Shown here: positions 1-6,990 of the stretch, piece by piece
How positions within the stretch are numbered: position 1 is the first letter of the stretch
How the letters are laid out: every line of letters begins with the position of its first letter
Assembly (NCBI GenBank): GCA_020444175.1
Contig: JAHLLM010000012.1
Span: 1-64,000, forward strand
Direction: 5' to 3'
DNA from: Desulfobulbaceae bacterium
GTDB taxonomy: Bacteria; Desulfobacterota; Desulfobulbia; Desulfobulbales; SURF-16
DNA length: 64,000 nt
The notes under the pieces: model-generated
What the model was told of the DNA's origin: nothing
The model's database searches: none
The model's input: the letters and a program-made list of their open reading frames with translations, nothing else
Made by a program: the position numbers and the translations under genes

Positions 1-20
1 TAGCTGGCTAGTCCGCCTAG

Positions 21-40
21 ATTCCCGCTTTCGCGGGAAT
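21..40. repeat. Short perfect hairpin repeat (8-bp stem)
   Basis: ATTCCCGC (21-28) pairs perfectly with GCGGGAAT (33-40) around a 4-nt loop. This motif, followed by GACG, resembles short palindromic repeats scattered between genes in many proteobacterial genomes. It could also serve as a terminator for a gene left of the window, but no T-run follows it. Only one copy is seen here. Confidence 0.45.
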
Positions 41-180
41 GACGTATAAAAAGGTTGAAGATGAGTGGCAATCAAATTTTTCTTTGCAACAAGGTGCTTA
101 AAATTCATAACGCAACACGCTATACTGATATGGACAGCCTAACAGATTCACCATCACACCTGACCAGATAAGGACTTCCC

Positions 181-1008
181 ATGAAATGGAAACAATTTTT
201 TACCCCTGTGGCATCCATCAACGGCAACGAAGCAAAGCAGCTTGAATCAGACAGCTCCGATGATGTTGTTTATCTTGACGTCCGCCAGCCCCGCGAATAT
301 GAAAAATCCCATATTCCTGGTTCCACGTTAATCCCCATTGGTGAACTCGATAAGCGGCTGCATGAACTTGATCCGGACAAGCCAACGGTTGTTTACTGAG
401 CTGTAGGAGGACGCAGCCGGGTTGCTGCGCAGATGTTATCAGCAAAAGGATTCAAAAAAGTCTATAATCTGAGCGGAGGGATAAGAGCCTGGAACAAAGA
501 GGTTGCCATCGGACCCCAGGACATGGGACTTGAACTTTTCAGCGGAGACGAAAGTGCTGAAGACACCATTGTCACTGGTTTTGGCCTTGAACAGGGACTG
601 AGGGAATTCTACCTGAATTCTAAAAACAGGGTGGCAAACGACGATGCAGCGCAACTGTTTGCCAAACTTGCCGAAATCGAAATCAGGCATCAGGAATTTC
701 TGGTCTCGCTCTATCAGGAGGTAACGGGAAAGTCGGTTTCCATGGAAGAGTTTGCGGACAAAATAGTGACCCCTGCCATGGAGGGAGGTTTGACCACGGA
801 AGAATATCTCAGGCGTTTCAACTCGAACCTTGAGTCAACGGAAGATATTCTCGATCTGGCCCTTTCAATAGAGGCCCAGGCCCTGGATCTCTACCAGAGG
901 GCCGCAGAGCGGGCGGCAGATGAAAAGATCAAATCCGTACTGCAAAAAATTGCCGATGAGGAAAGAGCGCATATCGCAAGTCTTGCCAATTACATTGACA
1001 CCATGTAA
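181..1008 (+). CDS. Probable selenoprotein: rhodanese domain (Sec73) fused to ferritin-like/rubrerythrin domain
   Basis: Translated as one 275-residue protein by reading the in-frame TGA at 397-399 as selenocysteine. Residues about 10-100 are a rhodanese domain: it has the DVR..EY..SHIPGS segment and an active-site loop in which the catalytic Cys position is the TGA (VVY-U-AVGGRS, canonical VVYC..G.RS). Residues about 115-275 are a four-helix ferritin-like domain with a helix-1 LEQGLREFY segment, an EIEIRHQEF motif and a DEERAHI motif near the C-terminus, i.e. the Glu/His ligands of a di-iron site. The start ATG has AAGGA six bases upstream. Both halves lie in the same frame with no other stop. 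A hairpin suitable for a bacterial SECIS follows the TGA directly (separate entry). Likely role, by family: sulfur transfer or persulfide chemistry coupled to peroxide or oxygen defence. A plain nonsense mutation or a base-call error (TGC/TGT to TGA) is the main alternative. Confidence 0.85.
397..432 (+). promoter_or_regulatory. Candidate bacterial SECIS element after the Sec UGA
   Basis: Directly after TGA (397-399), CGCAGC (412-417) pairs perfectly with GCTGCG (424-429) around the six-base loop CGGGTT, which contains the G-rich/GU apical loop expected for SelB binding. CTG 401-403 can pair with CAG 430-432 to close a lower stem with a bulge. The apical loop lies about 18-24 bases from the UGA, the spacing expected for bacterial SECIS hairpins such as that of fdhF. 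No folding program was run. Confidence 0.7.
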
Positions 1009-1059: not shown

Positions 1060-3486
1060 CTAAAACCAGCAGCGTCCCTCACCGATCACCTTATAGAGTA
1101 TGGCCGGCAGGCCGCCGGGCAGCTGATAATCCTTTTCCGGATCATTACGAAAAATAAACAGGGAGCGTTTATCCACCTCATTCCAGTTCATGTCAATCGG
1201 CCCCTGGGCTATGGTTTCAAAAAGAAAACGGTTGTACATGTTGTTGACAACCGTTTTACCGGCGCCGATACTGCCCAACAGGTCAATCTTGTTGCAGAAG
1301 GTCTGGGTGAGTTCATTGTAGATATTAATCCCCCCGCAGGCGCCGATACTTATAAAACGTTTTTTTGCTGCCATCTCTTCCCTTTTCAGTCTGCCGGATT
1401 GTAAGAGTTCATGAAGGGGGTTGAGAATATGCTCTTCCAGCCAGTAACTGTGACCGCGATGGGAAAACATTTCATGACCGCCGCTGATAAAGCGCTCAAC
1501 AAGCCGCTGCTGCATTTCCTTATTTTGAAAAACGAAAAAGCTGTGGGACAGCTGGAGCGAATCAAAACTTCTGACAAAATCAACCCCGACAGGCTTTGTT
1601 TTAAGAAAATCAAATAATGCCCCCAGGCTTTGTGGTTTATCAGCAACAACTGCCGACAGTTTTTCCGCAAGTTGCCGGGTCAAATCTTCATCATTCCGGT
1701 TATCGATAAACGAACTGTTCACCCTGGGTAAGTAGTCATTTTTCATCAGATACCGGCAATTGGAAACAAAGGAATTGCGGCCATCATCATCGTCATGGAA
1801 AACAGACAGGCCGCTGAGCATCCCATCCCCTATCCATTCAGCAAAAGGAGTCACAAGATACTGTTCCAGAGAAACGGTTTCGTATTCCGCCATAACTTTT
1901 TGTATCTCTGCAACACTGGCCTTGCCCAGCAGTTCAGGTTGTCTCTCCTCATAATATTGAAGAATAACCCTGATCTGTTTTGCAAAGAGAGTATCCCCCC
2001 TTGATTGGGAAATCATATTACCGATTATAAAGGAACGGGCCTGAGGGAGAACGCTTTGCAACAGTTTTTCAAAGGTAGCGGCAAAAAGAACAAGGCTGTT
2101 TTCATCACGAAAGGCGGAGGTGGCAACAAGCTGCAGGATCTCCTGCTGGCCATGTGCATCACCTGGGAGAAAATTGGTTAAGCGTCCCTTCTGAGACAGA
2201 CTTGAAACAAAATTGGCAACATAGGTGTTTTCCGGATCGATATCCCGGATGAAACGTAGGAGACTCCCCTGATGCGACTTGGCCAGTCGACTCTGCAACT
2301 CGGGAACAAGTACCAGACGATAGGAGCTGTCATAAAGCAGGGGGGCCCTTGAAAGCAATATATAGAGTTGCGCTGCACTCTGTCTTCTGGCCTTTTCCTT
2401 CCTGGCTCGGGCTGTTGCTCCGCGCAGAAGGTCGATGGTGCCTTTTTTATCCCCTTTCTTGACCAGCTTGCCAAACTGGGTTTTGTATATTTCCCTGACT
2501 TCGGCGGACAGTCTCTCAAATAATTCATGCAAGGCCGCAAAAGAATACTGATTCAGCTGTTCATCTGCAATCTCCTCGCCATCCGGATGAGTCAGGGAAT
2601 GCAGATTGTTGATATCGCGGATAACAAAATCAGAGGCATTATGATAGGCCTTTAAAAAAGTCATTTTTTCTGCCGGAGGAAGAAGCAGATAATCCTCATC
2701 ATGTTTTTCCAGAGGCTGGGCAAAAAAACCAGTTAACCAGGAATAAGCTTTGCTGCTCGTCATGTCATCAAGCCCGAACATGGACCGGATAACCCAGGAA
2801 TCGTCCTCATGGATATTTTCTATGGCCTCAATATTTCGTAAGGCCTCCGACACGGTAATCCCTTTTATTTTATTGCTTGCTTCGACTGGCCAGCAGAGAC
2901 TTTTAGGGAGTCTACTTATGGCCTCAAGCCCGCGGGTTACGGTTTCCGAACTCTGTCCTTTTATTTCAAAATATGACTTTGCCGCCCAACGGGCCGGATC
3001 ACTCAATCTGCTGACAACCGGCAGATTAACCAGGACGCCCTTTGCATTCATGCCCCTGATATTACAGAGATCCGTTGCCGCCCATATTGACGTGAAATCC
3101 AGATCCCTGATGATCTCAAGAGCAGCAAGGGCAGTTTTCAAGGTAATGCCGTCAAGTTTACAAAATTTCTCAAAAAGCCCCGTACCGTCATAGCTGATGT
3201 CCTTGCCTTCAAGTTCAGCAAGAGAACTGATAGCTTCAGGAGCTGATATACCGGGAATGGAGCAGAGAGCCGCCAGAATACGCAGATTGCTGTACTCAAG
3301 TTTTTCGATGCGCGGCCTGTTCTTGTCCAGTTGATCTTTGTTTGCACCGGGAAGCTGCTCTAAAAGATGAAAGGTCCTGTTCAAAAGAACTCCGGCACCA
3401 GCTTGGCCGGGAAAAAGACCAACTGCCAAAAGCAGAAGAAACACCCAGGCAAGCAACCGCATATTTAAAAAATTTTTCCTATACAC
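1060..3486 (-). CDS. Exported protein with helical repeats and possible caspase-like C-terminal domain
   Basis: 808 residues from a GTG with GAGAGG upstream; an ATG at 3462 (Met9) is an alternative start. Either gives a cleavable-looking signal peptide (charged start, LLAWVFLLLLAVGLF core, AGA end). Residues about 50-265 hold roughly six degenerate repeats of about 40 residues, each with a core like I-x-G-I/M-T/S-x-x-x-A-L-x-x-L, probably a helical solenoid. The middle is helical and unrecognised. Near the C-terminus are an SHRGHSYWL motif (His679) and a hydrophobic strand ending in ACGG (Cys717), 38 residues apart, followed by DLLGSIGAG. This order and spacing resemble clan CD (caspase/gingipain-like) peptidases, but the assignment is inference. 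It is monocistronic by appearance and convergent with the selenoprotein gene. No confident function. Confidence 0.75.
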   Translation of the reverse strand: MYRKNFLNMRLLAWVFLLLLAVGLFPGQAGAGVLLNRTFHLLEQLPGANKDQLDKNRPRIEKLEYSNLRILAALCSIPGISAPEAISSLAELEGKDISYDGTGLFEKFCKLDGITLKTALAALEIIRDLDFTSIWAATDLCNIRGMNAKGVLVNLPVVSRLSDPARWAAKSYFEIKGQSSETVTRGLEAISRLPKSLCWPVEASNKIKGITVSEALRNIEAIENIHEDDSWVIRSMFGLDDMTSSKAYSWLTGFFAQPLEKHDEDYLLLPPAEKMTFLKAYHNASDFVIRDINNLHSLTHPDGEEIADEQLNQYSFAALHELFERLSAEVREIYKTQFGKLVKKGDKKGTIDLLRGATARARKEKARRQSAAQLYILLSRAPLLYDSSYRLVLVPELQSRLAKSHQGSLLRFIRDIDPENTYVANFVSSLSQKGRLTNFLPGDAHGQQEILQLVATSAFRDENSLVLFAATFEKLLQSVLPQARSFIIGNMISQSRGDTLFAKQIRVILQYYEERQPELLGKASVAEIQKVMAEYETVSLEQYLVTPFAEWIGDGMLSGLSVFHDDDDGRNSFVSNCRYLMKNDYLPRVNSSFIDNRNDEDLTRQLAEKLSAVVADKPQSLGALFDFLKTKPVGVDFVRSFDSLQLSHSFFVFQNKEMQQRLVERFISGGHEMFSHRGHSYWLEEHILNPLHELLQSGRLKREEMAAKKRFISIGACGGINIYNELTQTFCNKIDLLGSIGAGKTVVNNMYNRFLFETIAQGPIDMNWNEVDKRSLFIFRNDPEKDYQLPGGLPAILYKVIGEGRCWF

Positions 3487-6215: not shown

Positions 6216-6261
6216 TATTTTTTCATGATCCCCAGACAATACAATTTCAGAGGTGCGCCAT

Positions 6262-6990
6262 ATGGGACATAAGTCAAAGCACCATATTAAGAAAAAGAAA
6301 TCCGCTTCCCATGCAAAGCCCAACCCAACTGAAAACAACCTGTCGAAACCACTTGAAATTGTAATAAAAGGCGACACAGACGGCTGTGAAGAAGCTGTCT
6401 GTCAAACTATTGAATCAAGAGTTTCGCAAGGAGTACCCATCGAGATTATCCACAAGGGAGTTGGAGATATCTGCAAGAATGATATCCTTACTGCATCAAC
6501 GGGCAGCAAGCTTGTCGTAGGATTTAATGTCAATGTCCTGCCAAAGATATCGGAACTCTGCCTGGAACAGGGAGTCGAAGTCCGCCTCTATTCGGTTATT
6601 TATAAATTACAGGAAGATCTTCGGGAAATTTCCCAAACCCTCATACCGAAAGAACCAGAAGAACACATTCTTGGCAGCGCTCACGTTATCGCCCTTTTTA
6701 AAAGCTCCAGAAAAGGGATTATTCTCGGGTGTGAAGTAAACTCAGGGCGCCTCCAGCTCGGTGACAAATTCCGGGTTATCTCCGGAATGGGTCCTGTTTA
6801 TTCAGGCTCCATCGAATCACTGCATATTGAAAAAAACAACGTCAAGAAAGCAACTCAAGGACAACAGGTTGGACTGAAAATAACGAATTTTAATAAAGCG
6901 AAAATAGGCGACATAGTCGAAAGCTATGAAATCACACGTCCTGCCCACCAGTCTCCCTGGCAACCAAGCGGAAAAATTCTGCACCTATAG
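6262..6990 (+). CDS. GTPase-less IF2-like protein (IF2 C1 and C2 domains only)
   Basis: 242 residues from the ATG at 6262, which has AGAGG eight bases upstream; a GTG at 6253 is possible but less well placed. After a Lys/His-rich basic tail (residues 1-20), residues about 30-125 match the C1 domain of initiation factor IF2 (K-x-D-x-x-G pattern, GVGDICKNDI, VVGFNV, VEVRLYSVIY). Residues about 130-230 match the fMet-tRNA-binding C2 barrel (LGSAHVIALFKSS, GIILGCEVNSG, GDIVESYEI). The GTPase and domain II of InfB are absent, and nothing upstream could encode them. One C2 cysteine (GCEV) matches IF2; a second Cys site of the E. coli protein is replaced by V (GQQVG). Role unknown; it may bind tRNA or ribosomes. 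It lies 12 bp before the zinc-knuckle gene, so the two are probably co-transcribed. Confidence 0.85.
   Translation: MGHKSKHHIKKKKSASHAKPNPTENNLSKPLEIVIKGDTDGCEEAVCQTIESRVSQGVPIEIIHKGVGDICKNDILTASTGSKLVVGFNVNVLPKISELCLEQGVEVRLYSVIYKLQEDLREISQTLIPKEPEEHILGSAHVIALFKSSRKGIILGCEVNSGRLQLGDKFRVISGMGPVYSGSIESLHIEKNNVKKATQGQQVGLKITNFNKAKIGDIVESYEITRPAHQSPWQPSGKILHL

Follow-up and report, generated by a model that had tools for sequence, protein, structure and literature searches.

Close to one end of this stretch of DNA (64,000 nucleotides, referred to here as the window) lies a gene with an in-frame TGA at positions 397–399, and the question is whether that codon breaks the gene or is read as selenocysteine (Sec). 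Our answer is that the gene encodes a selenoprotein, with a probability of roughly 97%, and we are nearly as confident that the product has a two-domain architecture in which the active sites are intact. The answer comes from comparison, which shows, at the level of sequence, conserved recoding of the codon, selection on a SECIS hairpin, a complete Sec machinery in the genome, and conservation of both active sites. The features that the argument requires are as follows.

169–174, + strand: likely ribosome-binding stretch (TAAGGA) upstream of ATG181; putative, read from the sequence
181–1008, + strand: selenoprotein gene, complete (translation with TGA as Sec, Pfam, and 99 aligned homologues)
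238–498, + strand: rhodanese domain, residues ~20–106 (PF00581)
397–399, + strand: in-frame TGA, Sec73, at the catalytic position of the rhodanese loop U-A-V-G-G-R-S
412–429, + strand: SECIS hairpin CGCAGC-CGGGTT-GCTGCG (folding and published bacterial SECIS rules)
547–1005, + strand: rubrerythrin/ferritin-like four-helix domain, residues ~123–275 (PF02915, ligands, and structure model)

The gene runs from ATG181 to the TAA stop at 1006–1008 and encodes 275 residues, including Sec73. There is only one in-frame TGA between these points, and its context, VVY-U-AVGGRS, is that of the catalytic position in a CxxGxRS rhodanese loop. Translation thus bears out the original prediction, made from the letters of the window, that a lone TGA falls at the rhodanese catalytic position of an otherwise open frame. 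The same is true of the claim that the two sides of the TGA belong to one frame, as the read-through protein matches both Pfam Rhodanese (PF00581; residues 20–106, 1.2e-22, 80.7 bits against a cutoff of 22.2), with a six-residue loop of the CxxGxRS type (here U-A-V-G-G-R-S), and Pfam Rubrerythrin (PF02915; residues 136–269, 1.2e-9, 39.1 bits against a cutoff of 22.8). As was anticipated, a standard gene caller splits the gene, giving pieces at 181–399 (72 aa) and 433–1008 (191 aa).

Those two pieces could be real products if UGA acts mainly as a stop, in which case the cell would make a short piece of the rhodanese and, separately, the ferritin-like domain, and Sec insertion would be minor or selenium dependent. 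SECIS-directed recoding is generally in competition with termination, and ATG433 could in principle restart translation. However, the first piece would stop short of the GGRS of the rhodanese loop, ATG433 lies inside a rhodanese helix in the structure model, and the homologues with Cys at this position (see below) show that selection acts on a continuous protein. We consider termination as the main outcome to be very unlikely.

The start of the gene is ~180 bp from the start of the contig, no partner gene adjoins it, and a convergent gene (1060–3486) faces it. Close to the contig end there is a palindrome (ATTCCCGC..GCGGGAAT, window positions 20–45), which may be a dispersed repeat where the assembly broke. 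Elsewhere in the window (6253–6990, + strand), a 245-aa ORF resembles, by eye, the C-terminal domains of IF-2 without the GTPase domain.

Homologues were drawn from 22 genomes of the family, 258 genomes of the order, named genome contigs, and further fetched loci, resulting in 99 aligned genes. The codon for residue 73 is TGA, TGC, or TGT in all 99, within conserved flanks (VY[U/C]xxGxRS). Removal of duplicates leaves 96 genes, 58 with TGA and 38 with TGC or TGT, and no other codon is used; the alignment suggested as a check on the original prediction therefore returned only Sec or Cys at this position. On a tree built without the residue-73 column there are at least 13 switches between Sec and Cys, eight of them forced by well-supported branches. 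In a sample of 395 genomes from across the phylum, 106 contain matches to the family, and a Cys paralogue, 39% identical to the window protein, is present in the window's own genome (C61:172–978). Cys forms are common, so the family can do without Sec.

These counts also decide whether the gene is simply a pseudogene or the product of a sequencing error, with a TGC or TGT turned into TGA by misreading or mutation and the gene consequently broken. TGA is indeed one substitution from both Cys codons. However, a TGA at this same codon is found in 58 nonredundant genes from many genera, the downstream domain is intact with invariant ligands, and selection on the hairpin is specific to the TGA genes (both described below). 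We rejected the pseudogene and the sequencing error because homologues carry the same TGA; the pattern of TGA and Cys codons, with its repeated switches across homologues, excludes them, and the probability that we leave to them is close to nil. The TGA is thus genuine, as originally read.

The hairpin agrees in every detail with its first description, which placed its start 12 nt past the TGA and gave it a 6-bp stem and a GGGTT-containing loop. The stem is perfect, the 6-nt loop (CGGGTT) has G at its second position and lies 18 nt after the TGA, and the folding energy is −8.8 kcal/mol. The published rules for bacterial SECIS elements call for a loop of 3–9 nt, a stem of 4–16 bp, a G among the first two bases of the loop, a loop 16–37 nt from the UGA, and an energy of −7.5 kcal/mol or lower (PMC13188914). 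Scored in this way, as had been proposed, the window gene passes, and it is one of 54 of the 58 TGA genes to do so, compared with 6 of the 38 Cys genes. It should be noted that the single window sequence proves little, because the 67-nt stretch folded alone is not unusual compared with its shuffles (z −0.73). Rfam searches of the window at the gathering threshold, and of positions 300–600 at E ≤ 10, returned nothing relevant, with the presence of a bacterial SECIS model in the set unconfirmed.

It is the family that carries this part of the argument. Where a SECIS element is expected, the best hairpin has a mean energy of −9.6 kcal/mol in TGA genes versus −3.4 kcal/mol in Cys genes, and under a null model in which the protein is kept and synonymous codons are drawn, the mean z is −2.2 versus −0.3. 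An uninterrupted stem of at least 5 bp is present in 57 of 58 TGA genes but in only 10 of 38 Cys genes, and codon 82 (Ala) is GCT in 51 and 5 of these, respectively. The family has two stem registers, so the hairpin is retained while its sequence shifts. Taken as sequence comparisons, these results indicate that the hairpin is under selection in TGA genes only and decays in the Cys forms.

The genome from which the window comes (5.42 Mb in 90 contigs) contains selA (622 bits), selB (368 bits), selC (67 bits against a gathering score of 47, with the tRNA-Sec also found by ARAGORN), and selD (379 bits), which settles favorably the check on sel genes that accompanied the original prediction. The selD gene is a selenoprotein gene itself, with an in-frame TGA at KAAGUAAK and a similar hairpin at 20 nt, and this recoded gene with its own hairpin is an internal positive control. 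Across the order, the presence of selB fails to distinguish Sec forms from Cys forms, and it is uninformative in this respect because the gene is nearly universal (matched in 218 of 258 genomes). Eight relatives that have the TGA form, all fragmented, lacked a selB match at E ≤ 1e-60. Six of them have tRNA-Sec, which was not found in the other two, so in those six the selB gap probably reflects incomplete assemblies. The alternation at residue 73, the SECIS rules, and the sel genes all agree with the placement of Sec at a sulfurtransferase active site.

Both halves of the protein retain what their chemistry should require. In the rhodanese half, D33, R35, Y72, G76, R78, and S79 are invariant, and in the helical half (apart from gaps) so are E137, E167, H170, E201, E231, E261, and H264. 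Six of the latter (E137, E167/H170, E231, and E261/H264) occupy the di-iron ligand positions in the order E, ExxH, E, ExxH, which is the pattern of rubrerythrin di-iron sites. Together with the PF02915 match, this upholds the rubrerythrin-like di-iron domain that was first proposed. The AlphaFold model has a mean pLDDT of 83.7, with low confidence in a linker at residues 108–119. Structural matches of the rhodanese half are to persulfide reductases and other rhodaneses; the best for the helical half is nigerythrin (Z 13.7, 138 residues, rmsd 2.4), with rubrerythrin (1ryt) at Z 12.2, and Z values of 12–14 are common to many ferritin-like bundles. The window protein has no cysteine at all, and in 50 of 57 Sec forms the Sec is likewise unaccompanied by any cysteine. 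Sec73 is therefore its only chalcogen nucleophile, and oxidized or persulfidated Sec must be resolved from outside the protein.

How the protein relates to known systems can be judged from several comparisons. Reviews distinguish five forms of rhodanese with Sec, of which forms 2 and 4 (references MBM9537886.1 and MCY3690685.1) have the motif UxxG (PMC13188914). The window protein is likewise a rhodanese with Sec in a UxxG motif (U-A-V-G), and it is set apart from forms 2 and 4 by description only, in that no ferritin or rubrerythrin domain is named for them in that source; it is possible that the window protein is already listed among them under a generic name. Form 3 (Rhodanese_LYCAU, NF041203) also has Sec in the active-site region of a rhodanese, but in a CxU motif with Sec two residues after Cys, and the window protein scores 49 bits against its cutoff of 115. 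Form 5 (TsoB, NF045694) is not reached either (24 bits versus 805).

Rubrerythrin and nigerythrin share the four-helix di-iron domain and its E, ExxH, E, ExxH positions. Classical rubrerythrin has a rubredoxin domain, whereas the window protein has none and instead carries the Sec-rhodanese at its N terminus; it scores 13.5 bits against the cutoff of 200 for the NCBIfam rubrerythrin model. The NADH-dependent persulfide reductases (CoADR-RHD; 3nta, 3icr) pair a rhodanese with an FAD pyridine-nucleotide reductase in one fused Cys protein without di-iron, whereas the window type combines Sec with a di-iron domain and leaves the FAD reductase as a separate protein. In BpPRF (5ve3), a rhodanese is similarly fused to an iron enzyme, but the latter is a dioxygenase of the metallo-beta-lactamase fold and the Cys rhodanese is C-terminal (match at chain residues 281–368), as opposed to the di-iron helical bundle and N-terminal Sec rhodanese here. 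The window protein reaches no NCBIfam model at its cutoff. Sec rhodaneses are thus already known, and our literature search, which covered rhodanese-rubrerythrin fusions and named Sec rhodanese fusions, found no description of the fusion.

Two further loci in the set are candidate Sec rhodaneses of other types. One (L152; G000:C20:68800-71800), in the same genome, encodes two tandem double-rhodanese proteins, each having an in-frame TGA a few residues after an active-site Cys (YCMGRSUPYS and HCLSERUTYS). The other (L153; G000:C54:31500-34500) encodes a multi-rhodanese protein whose loop FFCGGPTUGMS would hold both Cys and Sec.

Genomic context points to a partner. Of 56 Sec loci, 38 have an FAD pyridine-nucleotide oxidoreductase gene beside the rhodanese gene, as do 13 of 37 Cys loci, and the two genes often overlap by 4 bp; what is a fusion in CoADR-RHD is a pair of neighboring genes in these relatives. 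The best NCBIfam match of this neighbor is TIGR03169 (“Nterm_to_SelD”), and weaker matches include CoA-disulfide reductases. At 251 bits against a cutoff of 310, it is related to TIGR03169 and not a certified member. One cysteine (GGGDC) is present in 51 of 52 FAD partners. Neither in the window nor at two other loci (L004 and L005) does the FAD gene adjoin the rhodanese gene, and the link to an electron donor is therefore indirect in the window genome, which does encode a full-length homologue of this partner elsewhere (C78:50484–51572; 61% identical to the neighbor at L003). The Cys paralogue mentioned above (L021) has a 4-bp overlap with a different downstream gene, whose product resembles a GGDEF diguanylate cyclase and is not the FAD gene.

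In one subclade (L114, L116, L118, L121, L122, and L125), an ArsC-family gene directly upstream has an in-frame TGA of its own (YFRKGUTSC and the like) and is a candidate selenoprotein gene related to NF041106. The order is FAD oxidoreductase, ArsC-family gene, and then Sec-rhodanese, a putative case of two selenoproteins in one operon.

On this evidence, UGA 397–399 is almost certainly read as Sec by the SelA, SelB, SelC, and SelD of the cell, as directed by the downstream hairpin, and Sec73 stands in for the catalytic Cys of a single-domain rhodanese. A mechanism can also be sketched. Sec73 may take up sulfane sulfur as rhodaneses do, forming an Se-S(−) intermediate that would be resolved by an external thiol or a partner. 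Electrons from NAD(P)H could arrive via the FAD pyridine-nucleotide oxidoreductase, a relative of disulfide and persulfide reducers, and the di-iron site, having no rubredoxin, could spend them on the reduction of peroxide or oxygen. Overall, the protein would act as a persulfide/peroxide redox enzyme, a reasonable role and the one suggested in the original prediction, and would protect an anaerobe living in sulfide. We propose such a relay, fed by the FAD partner, only tentatively, as the odds are against it.

Two other functions were weighed. The Sec-rhodanese might hand sulfur or selenium to a partner, with the ferritin-like domain binding or sensing iron and having no part in redox catalysis. 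The relationship of the FAD neighbor to TIGR03169, which is named for a SelD fusion in other bacteria, and to CoA-disulfide reductases is consistent with such trafficking, as is the ArsC-family selenoprotein partner in one subclade. However, the score of that neighbor stops short of TIGR03169 membership, and the complete set of di-iron ligands argues for redox chemistry; we regard trafficking as unlikely, if still worth weighing. Alternatively, the di-iron site might oxidize persulfide with O2 or peroxide, making the protein a functional analogue of persulfide dioxygenase-rhodanese fusions. BpPRF is the precedent, being such a fusion with a rhodanese half that matches that of the window protein, but the ETHE1-type metallo-beta-lactamase part is absent here and, to our knowledge, di-iron domains of the rubrerythrin/nigerythrin type are known for peroxide reduction and not for sulfur oxygenation. 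Persulfide oxidation thus appears improbable.

To return to the relay, its fullest version is a little more doubtful than the relay itself. In that version, the cysteine-free protein would be a selenoenzyme class not yet described as such. Its Sec-rhodanese half would link the chemistry of sulfane sulfur directly with the reduction of peroxide or oxygen at the rubrerythrin-type di-iron site, with a TIGR03169-like FAD oxidoreductase supplying the power and, in one subclade, a second selenoprotein, of the ArsC family and encoded upstream, taking part.

The family is common and conserved in bacteria of the sulfate-reducer type, and ordinary annotation splits its Sec members into two fragments. 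The repeated exchange of Sec and Cys, with decay of the SECIS element in the Cys forms, offers a clean natural experiment for asking why a lineage should bear the cost of selenium. In a single polypeptide with one chalcogen nucleophile, selenium would be linked to both sulfane sulfur and di-iron chemistry.
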